64,000 nucleotides of DNA from Candidatus Wallbacteria bacterium (GTDB lineage Bacteria; Muiribacteriota; JAQTZZ01). The stretch's first letter is position 1, and the number at the start of each line of letters is the position of its first letter. The notes beneath the pieces were generated by a model, which saw nothing but the letters and a program-made list of their open reading frames with translations, had not been told where the DNA came from and made no database searches. Positions 4,018 to 40,582 of the stretch are shown here, one piece after another. The translations under genes and the position numbers were made by a program. The DNA is taken from the NCBI GenBank assembly GCA_028687545.1, contig JAQTZZ010000001.1:1-64000 (forward strand), in the 5' to 3' direction.

Positions 4018-5355
4018 TTAAACCAGCCCCATCCATTTTGCGACAGCAGGGCCTATACCCAGCATGTTGAGAGTGATAGGTATCAGCAGAACTCCCATCA
4101 GATTGCTCCGCCTGGAATTGAAGACCACTGGAATCAGGCCGATGCCGGTGGCTGCATAAGTGATCAGGAGTCCTTTCAGCCCGGTGAAGGCGAACACCAG
4201 GAAGATCAGAAAAAAGAGCGTAGCCATAGAGATTTTCTGATAAGGCACTTTCTGAATCAGGGCGATCACCCATTTCGTATAGAGAAGAGTCAGATAAAAA
4301 GCCAGTGCAGAGCTGATCAGGATCGCGGCTATTGCCAGGTAATACTCGTAATAACCTTTCGGAGTGTAAATCGTGGACAGCATCCAGGACATTCCGCCGC
4401 GGGTGATGTCATTGTTCGGCAGGAAGAACAGGAAGAACGAGCCGACGTAATAGATAAACTTGGAAACCCCCTGCGAGAGCATGAAAATCCGTTCGTCATG
4501 CTGGGCTGTGGCATGTCCGGCCATCAGGCCTCCGATGCCGCCGGTGACAAGGGGAAAGATGGCGGCGAATCCGCCTCCGAGCGCACCTGAACCTGTGCCA
4601 CGGGAGATCAGGTCCGCGTCCAGGTCAATGCTTCTGCTGATGTATTGCTTCGGGATGGAAGTATTGGAGAGGATATTCTGCAGCACCCATGGTATGGCGA
4701 AAAGGCCGACAAAAGCAGGCATCAGATTCTGGAAGGACATCTCCACATTCACGAATGGCCTGTAGACCATGATCATGCCGAGTATTCCTGCGAGGAACAT
4801 GGCCAGCATGCCTGAGCCGATACTTTTCCAGGCATCGAAGAAACGCGCCCAGGGGCCTGCGACGATGTCGCCTCCTTTTGGGAATTCCGACAGTATCATG
4901 TAAGCCATCACAAGAGCCAGCAGCCATCCCAGATGCGGCATGATGACGTTGCGGAGCAGCGGGACAAATGTGGGAGCAAGGGGAAAGATGAAGAGCAGGA
5001 ACGCCGCAGCTCCCAGTCCTCCGATGGCTGAGATAAGCACTGCATCATAACCCTTGCCAAGCATCAGGAACTTTTGTCCGGGCATCACCATGAAGACCGA
5101 GGCTTCATCAGGTGCGCCCAGAAATACGCTGGGGATGGTGTTTACGATCGAATATCCCACTACCAGGGCCAGCATGAAAGACATCAGATACATGGGATCT
5201 TCCTGAATAAAAGGAAATTTGGCATAAATGGTGGCGATAAACACGACCACCACGCTCGCCACGTTATAGATATGCAGAGCCGGAATACAGGCAAGTACAG
5301 AGGAAATCAGAGTCCCCAGCACGATCATCAGAAGATGCAGGAGAATGCTGATCAT
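4018..5355 (-). CDS. TctA/DUF112-like multipass membrane protein
   Basis: The protein has 445 residues and about 11-12 hydrophobic segments. The stretch GAPDEASVFMVMPG followed by GKGYDAVLISAIGGLGA is characteristic of the TctA/DUF112 family, and GALGGGFAAIFPLVTGGIGG forms a second glycine-rich re-entrant-like segment. TctA is the large membrane subunit of tripartite tricarboxylate carriers. No TctB or TctC partner is seen here, which fits the stand-alone DUF112 subgroup known mainly from archaea, whose substrate is unknown. It overlaps the upstream zinc-ribbon gene by four bases (ATGA). Confidence 0.75.
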   Translation of the reverse strand: MISILLHLLMIVLGTLISSVLACIPALHIYNVASVVVVFIATIYAKFPFIQEDPMYLMSFMLALVVGYSIVNTIPSVFLGAPDEASVFMVMPGQKFLMLGKGYDAVLISAIGGLGAAAFLLFIFPLAPTFVPLLRNVIMPHLGWLLALVMAYMILSEFPKGGDIVAGPWARFFDAWKSIGSGMLAMFLAGILGMIMVYRPFVNVEMSFQNLMPAFVGLFAIPWVLQNILSNTSIPKQYISRSIDLDADLISRGTGSGALGGGFAAIFPLVTGGIGGLMAGHATAQHDERIFMLSQGVSKFIYYVGSFFLFFLPNNDITRGGMSWMLSTIYTPKGYYEYYLAIAAILISSALAFYLTLLYTKWVIALIQKVPYQKISMATLFFLIFLVFAFTGLKGLLITYAATGIGLIPVVFNSRRSNLMGVLLIPITLNMLGIGPAVAKWMGLV

Positions 5356-34912: not shown

Positions 34913-35950
34913 ATGACTGCGAAAGTGTATTTCAAGGAGTTTCTCAAGACACCGGCCGAAACCGGTCAGGCAAGCCAGGCAGGCAGGGAACTGCTCGAAA
35001 TGATCATCCGTGAAGAAAAGCTTACACTCGAGAAAACTGTACCTCTGAAAGTCCATTTTGGGGAAGCTGGAAACCTTACCTATCTTAAAGCGGAAAATTA
35101 CCAGGGCGTTATCGATTATTTGCGTCAGGGATCGATAGAAACATGCTTTATCGAAACAAGCGCGTTGTATTCCGGGCGGAGGAAAAACAGAGAGCTGCAC
35201 CTGAAATTGGCAGAAGAACATGGATTCAGGGCAGTACCGATAGAAATCGCCGACGGAAGTGCAGGTGAAGCCTTTTATGAAGTGCAGATTCGGGGAAAGC
35301 ATTTTCAAAAATGCCGGCTGGGAGCAGGTTTTGCCAAATATCCGCAGTTGCTGGTGTTGAGCCATTTCAAGGGACATTCCCTGGCCGGATTCGGTGGAGC
35401 GATTAAAAATCTCGCGATGGGTTTTGCATCCAAAGCCGGGAAACTGGACCAGCATGCTGCCTCCGGGCCATTCATCATCCCGTTCCTCTGCAAAAAATGC
35501 CGCGCCTGCATTTTCTTCTGCCCTGTGAAGGCCATCAAAAGCGGTTTTTTCTTTAAAATTGACCGGCAAATCTGCATCGGCTGCGCAGGCTGCATCCCGA
35601 TCTGCCCGAAAGGTGCCATCATCCCGAATTTTCTGAATTCATTTTCCAGGAAATTCCCTGAACGCCTGGTGGAATATGCTCATGCTGCTCACCTGGGCCG
35701 CCGTAACGTTTACCTCAATTTCATCATTAACGTGACTTCAACCTGCGACTGCGTAGGCAGGAACATGAAGCCGATCGCCGATGATCTCGGCGTGCTGGCT
35801 TCTCTCGACCCTGTCGCCATTGACAAGGCCAGCCTGGACCTCCTGGATAAGAAGGCTGGAAAAATGCTATTCAAGAAGAATCGCCAATCTCTGGACTACG
35901 CGGAAAGCCTGGGTATGGGCAGCACGAAATACGAACTGGTTTCTATTTGA
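34913..35950 (+). CDS. DUF362 protein with two [4Fe-4S] ferredoxin clusters
   Basis: The protein has 345 residues. The DUF362 core spans both ends (KGHSLAGFGGAIKNLAMGFASKAGK, and LGVLASLDPVAIDKASLDL at the C-terminal side). A ferredoxin insert has CKKCRACIFFCP and CIGCAGCIPICP (about 193-230), giving two cubane clusters. Such proteins are common in anaerobes; their redox partner is not established. Its stop codon overlaps the 3' end of the convergent TonB receptor gene by eight bases. Confidence 0.9.
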   Translation: MTAKVYFKEFLKTPAETGQASQAGRELLEMIIREEKLTLEKTVPLKVHFGEAGNLTYLKAENYQGVIDYLRQGSIETCFIETSALYSGRRKNRELHLKLAEEHGFRAVPIEIADGSAGEAFYEVQIRGKHFQKCRLGAGFAKYPQLLVLSHFKGHSLAGFGGAIKNLAMGFASKAGKLDQHAASGPFIIPFLCKKCRACIFFCPVKAIKSGFFFKIDRQICIGCAGCIPICPKGAIIPNFLNSFSRKFPERLVEYAHAAHLGRRNVYLNFIINVTSTCDCVGRNMKPIADDLGVLASLDPVAIDKASLDLLDKKAGKMLFKKNRQSLDYAESLGMGSTKYELVSI

Positions 35951-37886
35951 AACTGCAGGTCATCCCCACGCTGACTGAGCGCCCTTCACCTGGAAAACCC
36001 CGGCTGGCGCGATAATCCTTGTCGAACGCGTTATCCATTCTGAGGAAGAACGATTTGTTGGTCAGCTGATAATCCAGTTCCACTGTGGTGACTGTGTATT
36101 TTCCGTTTTCAATGAACACGTCAGCCACATTGCTTTTCTCATAATAGGATTTGCCGTTTATAGACTGGGAAAGAGCCAGTTTCACCTGCTCGGTGAAATG
36201 ATAATCCACACCCAGAGTAGTGCGCAGCATGGGCACATTCTCAATGATTGTCTCTGCAGTAGTGCGGTCACTGGCATCGTTGTATGTGAAACCGAACCTG
36301 TAATCCCACTTGTGACTGCTGCCTTTAGCATTGAATTCCAATCCCTGATACACGGCTTCGCTGATGTTCTGGTTCTGAGACAGCCACTTTTTTTTGACAT
36401 TGTCATACAGGACATTTGACTTGAGAAAGATGGCATCAGTCAGCTTGTCGTGAAAGAACGCCAGATCGCAGTTCACGCCGCTGATGTTTCTTCTGTAACC
36501 TAGAGTAGAAAGCTGCCCGTGCTGTTCCTTTAGGCCAGGGTTGGGAACGCTGGTGTCAAGATAGCCGGAAAATCGGTCCTTGAGAGTCGGGAATCGTGTT
36601 TTATTCCCAAAATTTCCGTATAGTTCATCTTTATGCTGATAGGCTTTCTTGAAACTGAGCGTGTAATCACTGGTACTGATCTTATCAGGCAGCGCGTTGC
36701 CGTTAGCATTCCTTGGAATATTGCTGGCTGATGAAATTCCTGCAGTCCATTCCAGAGACTTGGTCTGCTGCCTGCGGTACTCGACTGCCAGGTCTGTTGT
36801 CAATCCCTTGTAATTGGCAAAAGGGTTCTTATAATTGCCGCACTCGCGGTGCACATCTGTTTTGCTGTAAACGAGGAAACCAAGCTGACTCTTAGCATTG
36901 AGCTGGTCTTCCAGCCTCAGGTTTATCCCCTGGCTGTAGTCATCGTAAATACTATGGAACGCATATCCTTTCGACTCCTTTTTCATGTTGATGTCGTCAT
37001 AGGAATCAAGCAGATTGAAGTATTTGTCTTTATAAATATTGTAATGCCAGGTCAGTTTATTTCTGCTAATGCTGTCCTCAAACGAATACTGGTCCTTTTT
37101 CCAGTCCGTGAATTTCCAAAAACGGGCTGTGCCATCCAGGTCGATCGGGACACCGTAACTTTCGGTGAATCTGGAAACCTTCAGAGCATACTGGCGGTTC
37201 GGGAGTGTCTTGCCGACGACCCAGTACAGGTCTTCCTTCTGCTTGTCAGAGAGCCTGCGCTGGCGGTCAGGCTGAACTGCGCAAGTGACAAAATCCTTGC
37301 TGAGGCGCTGGTTGTATAAATTAGAGGCTGTGGCTGCCGCTCCATAATAAAGAGTTCCTTCAGTATCATAGAACGAGGCGCTGCCTTCCAGTCCGCGGTG
37401 CTGGATGTAGTTGGTTGAGAGAGTTCCGTATCTATGAGTTGGTTTTTCAGTGATCAGGTTGATTGTGCCTGCCAGGGCATTGGGGCCTGCGAGCACAGAC
37501 GAAGCACCCTGCACTATTTCGATCTTCTTGATGCTGAATAGGTTGAGCTTTCCGATTTCAACGTAGCCATCATATGGAACCTGGACAGGTACCCCGTCTA
37601 AAAGCACGTTCACATCGCGCTGATTGAAACCACGGAAACTCACGTAGGTTTCACCCTTCTGACCCTGGGTGGGAATGATTGATGAGGATGCGTCGCTGAG
37701 GATTTTAGGCAGCTCTACCCTCCGTATCGGGTCATCCGGCGCGATCCTGATCACCTTTGCGTCAGGGTTGGAAATCTCTGCCGCCGGGTTCGCGGAAATC
37801 ACGATTTCGCCGAGATAAATCGGATTTTCCACAGCTGAGACCGAGCAGGTGACGATCAGACATAGGAGAATCAAAATGGTTTTCAT
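35943..37886 (-). CDS. TonB-dependent outer-membrane receptor
   Basis: From ATG 37886 (GGGAGG upstream) the product has about 647 residues with a signal peptide (MKTILILLCLIVTCSVSA). The TonB-box-like start IVISAN is followed by the plug domain (LPKILSDASS, VSFRGFNQRDVNVLLDGVPV, IKKIEIVQGASSVLAGPNALAGTINLIT). A 22-stranded-type barrel follows, ending in the aromatic SVGMTCSFK. It imports a substrate across the outer membrane using TonB energy. A ModE-like operator overlies its -10 region, so molybdate, tungstate or a complex of them is a likely cargo; this is inference. Confidence 0.95.
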   Translation of the reverse strand: MKTILILLCLIVTCSVSAVENPIYLGEIVISANPAAEISNPDAKVIRIAPDDPIRRVELPKILSDASSSIIPTQGQKGETYVSFRGFNQRDVNVLLDGVPVQVPYDGYVEIGKLNLFSIKKIEIVQGASSVLAGPNALAGTINLITEKPTHRYGTLSTNYIQHRGLEGSASFYDTEGTLYYGAAATASNLYNQRLSKDFVTCAVQPDRQRRLSDKQKEDLYWVVGKTLPNRQYALKVSRFTESYGVPIDLDGTARFWKFTDWKKDQYSFEDSISRNKLTWHYNIYKDKYFNLLDSYDDINMKKESKGYAFHSIYDDYSQGINLRLEDQLNAKSQLGFLVYSKTDVHRECGNYKNPFANYKGLTTDLAVEYRRQQTKSLEWTAGISSASNIPRNANGNALPDKISTSDYTLSFKKAYQHKDELYGNFGNKTRFPTLKDRFSGYLDTSVPNPGLKEQHGQLSTLGYRRNISGVNCDLAFFHDKLTDAIFLKSNVLYDNVKKKWLSQNQNISEAVYQGLEFNAKGSSHKWDYRFGFTYNDASDRTTAETIIENVPMLRTTLGVDYHFTEQVKLALSQSINGKSYYEKSNVADVFIENGKYTVTTVELDYQLTNKSFFLRMDNAFDKDYRASRGFPGEGRSVSVGMTCSFK

Positions 37887-37904
37887 GGAAAACCTCCCTT
37901 TTTT

Positions 37905-37928
37905 CATTATATAAAGTATTATATAACG
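37905..37928. promoter_or_regulatory. ModE-like operator 1 (TonB receptor promoter)
   Basis: The 24-bp palindrome has arms CATTATATA and TATATAACG separated by six bases, with one mismatch to perfect symmetry. It contains TATAT-N7-TATAT, matching the published ModE consensus TATAT-N7-TAYAT, and the CGTTATATA-type arm of the E. coli modA operator. It covers the -10 box of the TonB receptor gene. Confidence 0.65.
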
Positions 37929-37948
37929 ATTGAACTGGATAAAATCAA
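37920..37948 (-). promoter_or_regulatory. Promoter of the TonB receptor gene
   Basis: On the minus strand TTGATT (37948-37943), a 17-base spacer and TATATA (37925-37920) precede the start codon by about 33 bases. The -10 lies inside ModE-like operator 1, the arrangement expected for repression. Confidence 0.6.
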
Positions 37949-38002
37949 GAAATTGTCTCCATGTACTTGTTACCACGCTTTGACAAACTGGTGCCGGATC
38001 CG

Positions 38003-38026
38003 CGTTGTATAGTATTGATTACAACG
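38003..38026. promoter_or_regulatory. ModE-like operator 2 (divergent gene promoter)
   Basis: A second 24-bp palindrome has outer arms CGTTGT and ACAACG in perfect inversion and the same overall size as operator 1 (left CGTTGTATA, right ATTACAACG). It covers the -35 box of the plus-strand gene. It is weaker than operator 1 in the inner TATAT part. Confidence 0.55.
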
Positions 38027-38043
38027 TTGGATACGCTTATAAT
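38015..38043 (+). promoter_or_regulatory. Promoter of the sulfite-oxidase-fold gene
   Basis: TTGATT (38015-38020), a 17-base spacer and a perfect TATAAT (38038-38043) lie 28 bases upstream of the ATG at 38072. The -35 is inside ModE-like operator 2. Confidence 0.7.
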
Positions 38044-38071
38044 GTTGCCATATTTAATCCGGAGGGAAATC

Positions 38072-39079
38072 ATGGCTTATCTGTTTCCTTTTTTCTTTTT
38101 TCTGGCAGCATTGCCTGTCCATGCAGTCGAGAACAACGATTTTTACGACAATGAAAAGACATTTGAACTGGCAGTACCTCCGCTTACTATAGCCGGTGAG
38201 GTGGAAAACCCCGGACCAGTCGACTTTACAAAACTGCCTGTCCGTTCACTGATGGCCAGGGAAACTGAAATGAAAAATGGATTTCCTGGATTTACCGGCG
38301 CTTACCGCTATGACGGCTATTCCCTGTTCGATATTCTCAAGGAATCCTATCTCTCCAAGAAGAACAAGCAGGAATTTCCTCCGATCATCGATCTGATGGT
38401 GATTGTGGAAAACAAGAAGGGCGACAAGGTTGTGCTGAGCTGGGGAGAGATTTTCTATCCGACTTCCCTGCACAGGATCATCATCGCCAAATCCGTTTCC
38501 CCGATCATTCCTTCCAAAACCAAAGAACAGTGGCCGATCCCTCCTTCCAGCAAGCTGATCTGTGGAAATGACCTGCTGACAGTCAGGAATATTTCGGATC
38601 CGATTCGAATCACCGTTATCTCCAATCCTCATTCTTTCCCGGTGCAGAAGGATCTTTCCCCGCTGTACGCTTCTAAAGTGAGAATTTTTGAAAAAGAAAA
38701 GCTGCTTGCTGATACTGCTGATTTTCCCCAGGGTCTTGAGACACGCACTTACCCCACCGTGTTTTTCGGGCGCGGCAAGGGTTTCCATGGCCTGGAGCAG
38801 TTCAACGGCAGGCTTCTGAAGGAGATCCTGGCCCCGTATTATTCCGCTGATCCTGAAAATCTGAAAAAGGGCTATCTGACCCTCGTGGGTGCGGACGGGT
38901 ACAGGGTAAGCGTGACAGCCAGCGAACTCTTCAACCGCAACGATTATTCGGAGTATTTATTCATCGATGCAGGCTCCTATCAGGATGGTGGGAGATTCAA
39001 GGTGTATCCTGCCTACGACTTTTTCTCTGACAGAGCCGTAAAGGGGCTTTCCGAGATCCGTTTCGACCTGATTAAGTAA
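38072..39079 (+). CDS. Secreted protein resembling the sulfite-oxidase molybdopterin fold
   Basis: From ATG 38072 (GGAGG upstream) the product has 335 residues with a signal peptide ending PVHAVE. LTIAGEVENPGPVDFTKLP and YRYDGYSLFDILKESYL follow the pattern of the oxidoreductase-molybdopterin domain (L-x-IxGxV-x-xP, Y-x-G-x-xL-x-xLL). The pattern recurs near the C-terminal part (FHGLEQFNGRLLKEILAPYY, GYLTLVGADGYRVSVTASEL), so two related domains are likely. The cysteine that ligates Mo in sulfite oxidases is not apparent. It may be a periplasmic binding or storage protein for the cargo of the divergent TonB receptor. Confidence 0.55.
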   Translation: MAYLFPFFFFLAALPVHAVENNDFYDNEKTFELAVPPLTIAGEVENPGPVDFTKLPVRSLMARETEMKNGFPGFTGAYRYDGYSLFDILKESYLSKKNKQEFPPIIDLMVIVENKKGDKVVLSWGEIFYPTSLHRIIIAKSVSPIIPSKTKEQWPIPPSSKLICGNDLLTVRNISDPIRITVISNPHSFPVQKDLSPLYASKVRIFEKEKLLADTADFPQGLETRTYPTVFFGRGKGFHGLEQFNGRLLKEILAPYYSADPENLKKGYLTLVGADGYRVSVTASELFNRNDYSEYLFIDAGSYQDGGRFKVYPAYDFFSDRAVKGLSEIRFDLIK

Positions 39080-39139
39080 TAATTCGATTTAGTAAATCCG
39101 TGAGCCACTGCAGGTGGACGGCTGCGGCGCATTTTGTGC

Positions 39140-39167
39140 TTGCCAGACAGGCTTTTCCCGGTATAAT
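39140..39167 (+). promoter_or_regulatory. Sigma-70 type promoter of the L,D-transpeptidase gene
   Basis: TTGCCA (39140-39145), a 16-base spacer and a perfect TATAAT (39162-39167) lie 21 bases upstream of the TTG start. Confidence 0.7.
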
Positions 39168-39188
39168 TGAAAAAACCGGGGGGAAACT

Positions 39189-40064
39189 TTGAATAAATTA
39201 CTGATAGCTTTGATTTTTATTACAGTCTCGATCTGTGCAGCATATGACAATCTCATCTTCGCTCCAGCTGATCCGAATGCAGTACTGCGCCTTTATGATT
39301 CGCCTGCCGCAGGTGGAATCGTCAATGCTGAAATCCAGGCAGGCGGCATTCTGCGTGTGATTGAACGCGAAGGGGACAGTCTCCTGCTTGTAAACGAGGA
39401 AGATCTGGCCGGCTGGGTAAAACTTGACCTGAAATCGATTGAGCGTGATTTTAAAGTGATGCCGGCCGCTCCGGCTCAGGAAGGACCACTCACCCGCCAG
39501 CCGATCCAGGCTCTCCAGGATCTCAACCAGACTCTTCCGCCGGAAAACGCCAGGCTCAAGATCATAGTTTCTCTGAAAGGACTGACAATGCATGTCAGAT
39601 GCGAAAAGGAAAATTTCGACAAAGTATATCCAGTAGGCGTGGGTGTCAAAGATTCCCACGGCAGGAGTTTTACTCCCACCTGCCAAAGCAGGAATGTGGC
39701 GGCTTTCAGGACACATTTCAATGCCAAGAACAAGGAATTCTTCATGGAGCACAGATACAGCCCTTCGCATTTCGGAGGATTTCCCTTTATCCGCTTGAAC
39801 ATACTCAACAGCGACCAGGATTACACCTATGGCATGCACGGCCCGATCACCCAGAAAACCAATGGTGCCTGGTACCTGCAGCGTGGTTTTGTCTCTCATG
39901 GCTGCATGCGGATGCGCCCGGAGGATGCCATTGAACTCTACAAACTGTCAGTAGCGAATCCGGCTGCGAGCCTGGTGATCCAGGAAGACTTTGAATATGA
40001 CCAGAACGGGAAAAAAGTGGACGTGGATTATCCGCTGTGGAGAGGCATAACAGCCGAGCAATAA
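39189..40064 (+). CDS. L,D-transpeptidase (YkuD) with SH3-like domain
   Basis: The protein has 291 residues and begins with TTG behind a GGGGGGAAAC ribosome site. It has a signal peptide (1-18), then an SH3-like region (about 28-90, RLYDSPAAGGIVNAEIQ). The YkuD domain has MHGPI (His217) and VSHGCMRM (catalytic Cys239), all key residues present. It forms 3-3 cross-links in peptidoglycan or anchors proteins to it. Confidence 0.95.
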   Translation: MNKLLIALIFITVSICAAYDNLIFAPADPNAVLRLYDSPAAGGIVNAEIQAGGILRVIEREGDSLLLVNEEDLAGWVKLDLKSIERDFKVMPAAPAQEGPLTRQPIQALQDLNQTLPPENARLKIIVSLKGLTMHVRCEKENFDKVYPVGVGVKDSHGRSFTPTCQSRNVAAFRTHFNAKNKEFFMEHRYSPSHFGGFPFIRLNILNSDQDYTYGMHGPITQKTNGAWYLQRGFVSHGCMRMRPEDAIELYKLSVANPAASLVIQEDFEYDQNGKKVDVDYPLWRGITAEQ

Positions 40065-40100
40065 AGTTCTCGAGGATTGTTCATCTGTTTTCAACCAATT

Positions 40101-40128
40101 TTGCCAAGTTCCCAAATAGTAGTATACT
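40101..40128 (+). promoter_or_regulatory. Sigma-70 type promoter of the molbindin gene
   Basis: TTGCCA (40101-40106), a 16-base spacer and TATACT (40123-40128) precede the gene start by about 34 bases. No ModE-like palindrome is seen here. Confidence 0.65.
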
Positions 40129-40162
40129 GTCACCCAGAAAGTAATTCCCATTGGAGGTAATT

Positions 40163-40582
40163 TTGAAGACCAGTGCCAGAAATCAATTTTCCGGAAAAGT
40201 AAATTCTGTGAAAAAGGGAGCAGTCAACAGTGAAATTGTGATCGATCTGAAAGGCAAAGATCAGATCACTGCCGTGATCACTAATGAGTCAGTAGAAAAC
40301 CTAGGTTTGAAGAAGGGAAGCAAAGCTTACGGACTGATCAAGGCTTCCTGGGTAGTTCTGGCTGACGACCCGAAACTGAAGACCAGCGCCAGGAACAGAT
40401 TTACGGGAAAGATTGAAAAACTTACCGAGGGCACAGTAAACACCGAAGTTGTGATGAAGCTCCCGGGCGGGAATCAGCTGGTGTCCATGATTACTAACGA
40501 AAGCGCTAAAAGCATGGGATTGAAGAAGGGAAAGAATCTGCTGGCTATGTTCAAGGCATCCAGTGTGATCGTCGGCGTCTAA
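40163..40582 (+). CDS. Molbindin with two Mop domains
   Basis: The start is TTG at 40163, with GGAGG eight bases upstream; the product has 139 residues. Two tandem Mop (TOBE-type) domains of about 70 residues share TSARN(Q/R)F(S/T)GK, G-x-VN-x-E-V and ITNES-x2-x-(L/M)GLKKG, the residues that bind molybdate or tungstate oxyanions between subunits. Such proteins store and buffer molybdate in the cytoplasm. It lies about 1 kb downstream of the ModE-like operators. Confidence 0.95.
   Translation: MKTSARNQFSGKVNSVKKGAVNSEIVIDLKGKDQITAVITNESVENLGLKKGSKAYGLIKASWVVLADDPKLKTSARNRFTGKIEKLTEGTVNTEVVMKLPGGNQLVSMITNESAKSMGLKKGKNLLAMFKASSVIVGV

Follow-up and report, generated by a model that had tools for sequence, protein, structure and literature searches.

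Iron chelates, haem, cobalamin, nickel, copper, zinc and sugars are established substrates of TonB-dependent uptake across the outer membrane; for molybdenum and tungsten the usual picture is diffusion through porins. At the level of control, ModE binds TATAT-N7-TAYAT within CGTTATATN8ATATAACG and represses molybdate uptake. Here we analyse a divergent gene pair in the first 64,000 nucleotides of contig JAQTZZ010000001.1 of a Candidatus Wallbacteria bacterium (this whole stretch is called the window). The pair encodes a TonB-dependent outer-membrane receptor and a novel secreted two-domain protein, denoted the companion, and forms a unit that is a strong candidate for active outer-membrane uptake of tungsten or molybdenum, a route hardly studied so far. 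An earlier note on this DNA had remarked that TonB-type uptake of molybdate is little characterised. The portions of the open-licence literature covered by our search gave no experimental case joining TonB to molybdate, tungstate, ModE or the molybdenum cofactor (Moco) riboswitch (accounts elsewhere are possible), and a single hint. In Pelobacter carbinolicus (PMC3543383, 2012), TonB-type channel genes lie near genes for molybdopterin-binding proteins (Pcar_0191, Pcar_0192) or near cobalamin/molybdopterin riboswitches, and metal transport was suggested. It is a passing remark there, without ModE boxes, linkage to a TonB operon, an orthologue series or a tungsten-type riboswitch, and Pcar_0191 and Pcar_0192 are likened to the present genes by description only.

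Several described systems share features with this unit. The Escherichia coli ModE regulon (ModE, modABC) has the repressor architecture and operator consensus in common with the window genome, but the regulon here also takes in a TonB receptor, ExbB-ExbD-TonB, a DUF364 protein and a novel periplasmic protein. Regulons of RF01055, the Moco/tungsten cofactor (Tuco) riboswitch (Regulski et al. 2008, PMC2408646), involve the same RNA family as relatives of our unit, and other copies in the genomes studied here precede wtpA and moeA-moaA. Whereas a term search of that paper finds no mention of TonB or the outer membrane, nearly every Aminicenantes unit described below has RF01055 before a TonB receptor. 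BtuB, OprC, FrpB and other receptors for single metals or cofactors share with the window receptor a Plug domain and barrel, a TonB box and control by a matching sensor (compare the B12 riboswitch of btuB); by contrast, the window receptor has only about 12-17% identity to solved structures, scores far below family cut-offs and is regulated by molybdenum/tungsten sensors. Finally, the type VI secretion system (T6SS)-ModA-IcmP route of Pseudomonas aeruginosa likewise provides a dedicated outer-membrane step for molybdate, but it uses secreted ModA and outer-membrane IcmP, and the review that describes it (PMC8602904) reports no TonB receptor and no ModE or riboswitch link. Within the searchable literature, the regulon, the exchange of regulators and the tungsten-type riboswitch evidence presented here appear to be new.

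The divergent pair and its ModE-type boxes

The receptor gene (35943-37886, minus strand, 647 aa) and the companion gene (38072-39079, plus strand, 335 aa) are separated by a 185-bp gap that contains two 24-bp palindromes, both as the earlier note had read them. Box 1 (37905-37928, CATTATATAAAGTATTATATAACG) lies immediately 5' of the receptor start, has 1 mismatch to CGTTATATN8ATATAACG and contains TATAT-N7-TATAT exactly at 37908-37924. Box 2 (38003-38026, CGTTGTATAGTATTGATTACAACG; 3 mismatches to that consensus), with arms CGTTGT/ACAACG, is a variant of the TATAT-N7-TAYAT operator. As had been claimed, it covers the -35 element of the companion gene, which belongs to a sigma-70-type promoter, TTGATT-17-TATAAT, at 38015-38043 on the plus strand (10/12 in a consensus scan). 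The matching claim that box 1 overlies the receptor -10 holds in so far as an AT-rich, -10-like sequence is covered, but the consensus scan scored no promoter on that strand. We regard both boxes as predicted ModE operators, through which ModE would repress the two genes.

The boxes stand out from their surroundings. With a 24-bp scoring matrix built from seven ModE-type sites, all outside the window, box 1 ranked first in the 64 kb (27.9 bits) and box 2 second (20.5 bits), followed by a third site at 10.9 bits. Under a Markov-1 null for the same 185-bp gap (20,000 trials), the best score was at least that of box 2 in 0.02% of trials and at least that of box 1 in none. Across the 4.54-Mb genome, CGTTATATN8ATATAACG with up to 3 mismatches occurs at six sites; five, boxes 1 and 2 among them, are upstream of molybdenum/tungsten or TonB genes. 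The sixth (C50:8129) is asymmetric, sits within a long reading frame and was taken as a chance occurrence. A reversed control pattern is in fact commoner than the consensus, with 13 sites; the number of sites is thus unremarkable, and it is their placement that is significant.

The window genome encodes one true ModE (G000:C6:26301-27110), with an N-terminal helix-turn-helix (TIGR00637, 100.4 bits against a cut-off of 98.5) and two C-terminal Mop domains (TIGR00638, 146.7 bits in two stretches). It aligns across its whole length with the E. coli ModE structure 1b9m (E 5.9e-37). As it remains below the enterobacterial equivalog cut-off of NF007957 (187 against 369 bits), we classify it, on domains and homology, as a ModE but not an enterobacterial equivalog. 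Its gene is the last in the row DUF364-exbB-exbD-tonB-modE, apparently a single operon, with a box (CGTTATATAATGATTTATATCACA) at the start. The other boxes precede genes for WtpA and a WtpB-like permease, both on one contig, so that the palindrome is shared with molybdenum/tungsten transport genes. Because the receptor, ExbB-ExbD-TonB and the WtpA/WtpB-like components are all boxed, one repressor appears to govern the receptor together with its likely energy couplers and parts of the inner-membrane transporter. An XdhC gene adjoins the boxed operon.

The arrangement recurs in a sister Candidatus Wallbacteria draft, the family's second genome (contig JAQTRI010000007; 92% complete). There, too, receptor and companion genes are divergent with two boxes in between, at L020:5155-5178 (counterpart of box 1) and L020:5224-5247 (counterpart of box 2). 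Downstream of the receptor, on its strand, come exbB, exbD and tonB and, further on, a DUF364 gene; two more boxes lie before a ModABC operon and between a DUF364 gene and WtpA.

Related units under a Moco/Tuco riboswitch

Searching GTDB genomes with the companion protein as query yielded 22 loci: one in the sister genome and 21 in metagenome-assembled genomes labelled mostly Aminicenantes or Acidobacteriota. A receptor relative is encoded upstream of the companion gene in 17 of these 21 loci, in the same orientation and usually right next to it. Upstream DNA is cut off by contig ends in four loci; among the 17 in which it is readable, RF01055 precedes the unit in 16 (46-84 bits against a gathering score of 36), the exception being L038. 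The copy at the unit is the only one found in five genomes; further copies in these genomes precede WtpA, WtpB or MoeA-MoaA. At the Aminicenantes units no ModE boxes were found, the riboswitch being found in their place, and ModE control was rejected there. No Aminicenantes-type genome has a ModE above cut-off (two, G042 and G049, have weak matches), and RF01055 occurs neither in the window nor in either Wallbacteria genome. The two regulators thus occur apart: ModE without RF01055 in the window genome, and the opposite in nearly all Aminicenantes. In the companion-protein tree the Wallbacteria pair is nested within the Aminicenantes-type clade (the set of 13 has 99/99 support), a placement suggesting that the unit was transferred and its regulator then changed. 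In the six loci inspected, the conserved 3' end of the aptamer, GGAAAGGAG, lies directly before the receptor ATG, in the Shine-Dalgarno region; folding of the aptamer would thus probably hide the ribosome-binding site of the receptor gene.

That two unrelated molybdenum/tungsten sensors, one a protein and the other a riboswitch, act on the same pair in different lineages argues strongly for a cargo containing tungsten or molybdenum. Between the two metals, the riboswitches point to tungsten. Stem P3 is missing in all 16 unit riboswitches, in which P2 and P4 are only a few bases apart, and P3-less variants of the RNA correlate with organisms that use the tungsten cofactor (PMC2408646). The window genome, for its part, has two genes of the AFOR family, a tungstoenzyme family, and no PF00384 molybdoenzyme; xanthine-dehydrogenase-type enzymes were not searched for. 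The control of one pair by two such sensors points to tungsten being actively scavenged across the outer membrane in anoxic habitats.

One of the AFOR genes (L116:6114-8315, minus strand; G000:C8) is a single open frame in which AFOR_N and AFOR_C domains follow an N-terminal part resembling deoxyribose-phosphate aldolase, an unusual DeoC-tungstoenzyme fusion. The other (L117:3392-8291; G000:C16) is, as judged from sequence, part of a methylmalonyl-CoA mutase-like cluster with GTPase-chaperone-like and epimerase-like genes. The genome of L038 has a P3-less Moco/Tuco riboswitch ahead of a lipoprotein-like gene and a further TonB receptor (L067:1501-3119), with the companion gene on a different contig; this is possibly a second type of unit. 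Distant companion homologues in same-phylum genomes have RF01055 before them and TupA after them; those of L030, L032 and L031 (G039, G037 and G038) carry an inserted CxxCH haem motif and lie near a riboswitch that does contain P3.

The two proteins and their likely cargo

The receptor has a signal peptide, followed at residues 27-32 by the TonB-box-like sequence EIVISA, a Plug domain (Pfam Plug, 54.8 bits, 1.5e-14) and a predicted beta barrel; its relatives are collected in alignment A2. Its AlphaFold model, of modest quality (mean pLDDT 63), matches many receptors in Foldseek with E down to 1.5e-28, FrpB, OprC, BtuB and PqqU among them. In profile searches none of the curated models for receptors of known cargo reaches its cut-off. 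Cognate energy-coupling genes are at hand, in the boxed exbB-exbD-tonB operon of the window genome and adjoining the receptor in the sister genome.

The companion also has a signal peptide, with a mature start near ENNDFYDN, and is a secreted, probably periplasmic protein. An alignment of 28 rows (A1) reveals invariant GxGxGFHG, DGYR and DFFxDR motifs. The two halves of the protein resemble each other (hhalign, 97%, E 1e-10) and thus constitute a tandem of two related domains. The protein itself has no Pfam match, and its structure model (pLDDT 88) finds no PDB match at E < 0.001. The earlier note had likened it to the molybdopterin fold of sulfite oxidase, a claim that our searches support weakly. 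PF00174 does not match the window companion and reaches 22 bits, against a cut-off of 24, in one distant homologue; hhalign to E. coli MsrP gives a 9% probability; and neither Pfam, a PDB sequence search nor Foldseek confirms the fold. Because no cysteine is conserved in the 28 rows, a sulfite-oxidase-like active site is unlikely. ENNDFYDN presumably resembles the pterin-contact motif of MsrP, which we note as an unconfirmed lead only. A search for plasmid copies of the companion gene found none. Secretion, co-regulation and linkage suggest a cargo-binding protein, a testable role for this functionally uncharacterised secreted family.

Gene content, boxes, riboswitches, conservation and linkage were read out by computation; from these we infer repression by ModE, the cargo, the direction of transport and what the periplasmic protein does. 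We consider it likely that receptor and companion together import tungstate, and probably also molybdate, either free or chelated. In a regulon for acquiring tungsten and molybdenum, the divergent pair would then supply the first steps, at the outer membrane and in the periplasm. When cytoplasmic tungstate or molybdate is sufficient, metal-loaded ModE dimers would occupy both boxes and shut both promoters; on scarcity, repression of the pair would be lifted. The co-regulated ExbB-ExbD-TonB would power the receptor, allowing tungstate (probably also molybdate), free or with a small chelator, to cross the outer membrane. The two-domain periplasmic protein would receive the cargo, hold or free it and hand it on to WtpA/ModA, whose ABC transporters would complete import. 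In Aminicenantes the same pair would operate under a tungsten-cofactor-type riboswitch rather than ModE. The suggestion in the earlier note, that the receptor carries the oxyanion or a complex of it across the outer membrane, gains support from the presence of ModE, the shared boxes and the sister genome, the cargo itself staying conditional.

Several observations weigh against import of tungstate or molybdate by the pair. Both oxyanions are small and able to pass porins; active import across the outer membrane would therefore require that the metals be extremely scarce or the cargo chelated. The companion matches no known binding protein, and at one locus, L037, riboswitch and companion occur with no receptor beside them. 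No ModE was found in the 92%-complete sister draft despite its conserved boxes, which could reflect an assembly gap or a real loss with the boxes kept. The P3 rule, moreover, is a published correlation, and since the riboswitches of the distant TupA-linked homologues carry P3, the assignment to tungsten is not absolute.

A narrower version of the import proposal, in which the cargo is a metallophore complex, that is, tungstate or molybdate bound by a secreted catecholate or similar chelator, rather than the free oxyanion, is possible though less likely. TonB receptors normally carry large complexes, the catecholates of Azotobacter bind molybdate, and catecholate siderophore receptor profiles are among the sub-threshold matches of the receptor. 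Nevertheless, no conserved family for chelator biosynthesis lies beside the unit in the compared loci; such a chelator may be encoded elsewhere or by other species.

Less probable still is that the receptor salvages the complete pterin cofactor of tungsten or molybdenum, or a precursor such as molybdopterin, released by other cells, with the tandem-domain protein as pterin-binding carrier. The riboswitch upstream of the Aminicenantes units does sense the cofactor, the cofactor receptors BtuB and PqqU are among the structural neighbours, and the sub-threshold PF00174 match described above would fit a pterin ligand. Yet ModE senses the oxyanion and not the cofactor, Moco is unstable outside proteins, and companion relatives are encoded beside TupA. 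Unit-bearing Aminicenantes also have MoeA-MoaA under RF01055 and therefore make their own cofactor. We know of no precedent for an outer-membrane route for a tungsten or molybdenum pterin cofactor. What favours an oxyanion or its chelate is that the oxyanion ABC transporters lie behind the same boxes and riboswitches and so come under the same control.

We likewise attach little probability to a role in molybdenum/tungsten handling other than import, be it as a periplasmic enzyme or redox partner or in sensing or detoxifying the oxyanion. The CxxCH insertion in distant companion homologues suggests redox chemistry, and the companion is more conserved than the receptor. Both types of regulator, however, act on uptake or synthesis genes and repress them when the metal or cofactor is abundant, as reported for the riboswitch (PMC2408646) and established for ModE; this fits import and not detoxification.

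That the receptor serves cobalamin or iron/haem and lies near molybdenum/tungsten boxes by chance is very improbable: FrpB and BtuB are structural neighbours and the profiles of the BtuB and haem receptor families match weakly, but every profile match is far below cut-off (89 against 599.7 bits for the BtuB model TIGR01779), and the window receptor has ModE boxes, its relatives a Moco/Tuco riboswitch and its own gene no cobalamin riboswitch (RF00174), an element that in each Wallbacteria genome precedes the only other Plug-domain receptor, so that the window receptor is unlikely to be BtuB and this identity was rejected.

Neighbouring genes

About 1 kb beyond the companion gene, as the earlier note had it, a two-Mop molbindin is encoded (40151-40582, plus strand; TIGR00638 4e-48, TOBE 1e-34). 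TIGR00638 matches with 161 bits in two stretches within 143 aa, that is, a tandem of Mop domains without a DNA-binding domain. The protein is a probable cytoplasmic buffer for molybdate or tungstate. It has no ModE box, so that ModE control of it is not supported, and its likely tie to the unit is through function; single-Mop relatives lie close to the unit in L037, L041 and L043. A YkuD-type L,D-transpeptidase gene (39189-40064, plus strand) between companion and molbindin, also without a ModE box, is probably unrelated.

Near WtpA, a row of ECF-like transporter genes is accompanied by several WtpB/WtpC-like permease and ATPase genes (L009:4713-12600), an unusually large set of transporter parts. 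In both Wallbacteria genomes, genes of the uncharacterised DUF364/DUF4213 family repeatedly accompany ModE boxes and the unit (L008:12806-13597; L020:637-1380; L106:3562-4293 and 4300-5082), pointing to a molybdenum/tungsten role for the family and giving DUF364 a regulatory context.

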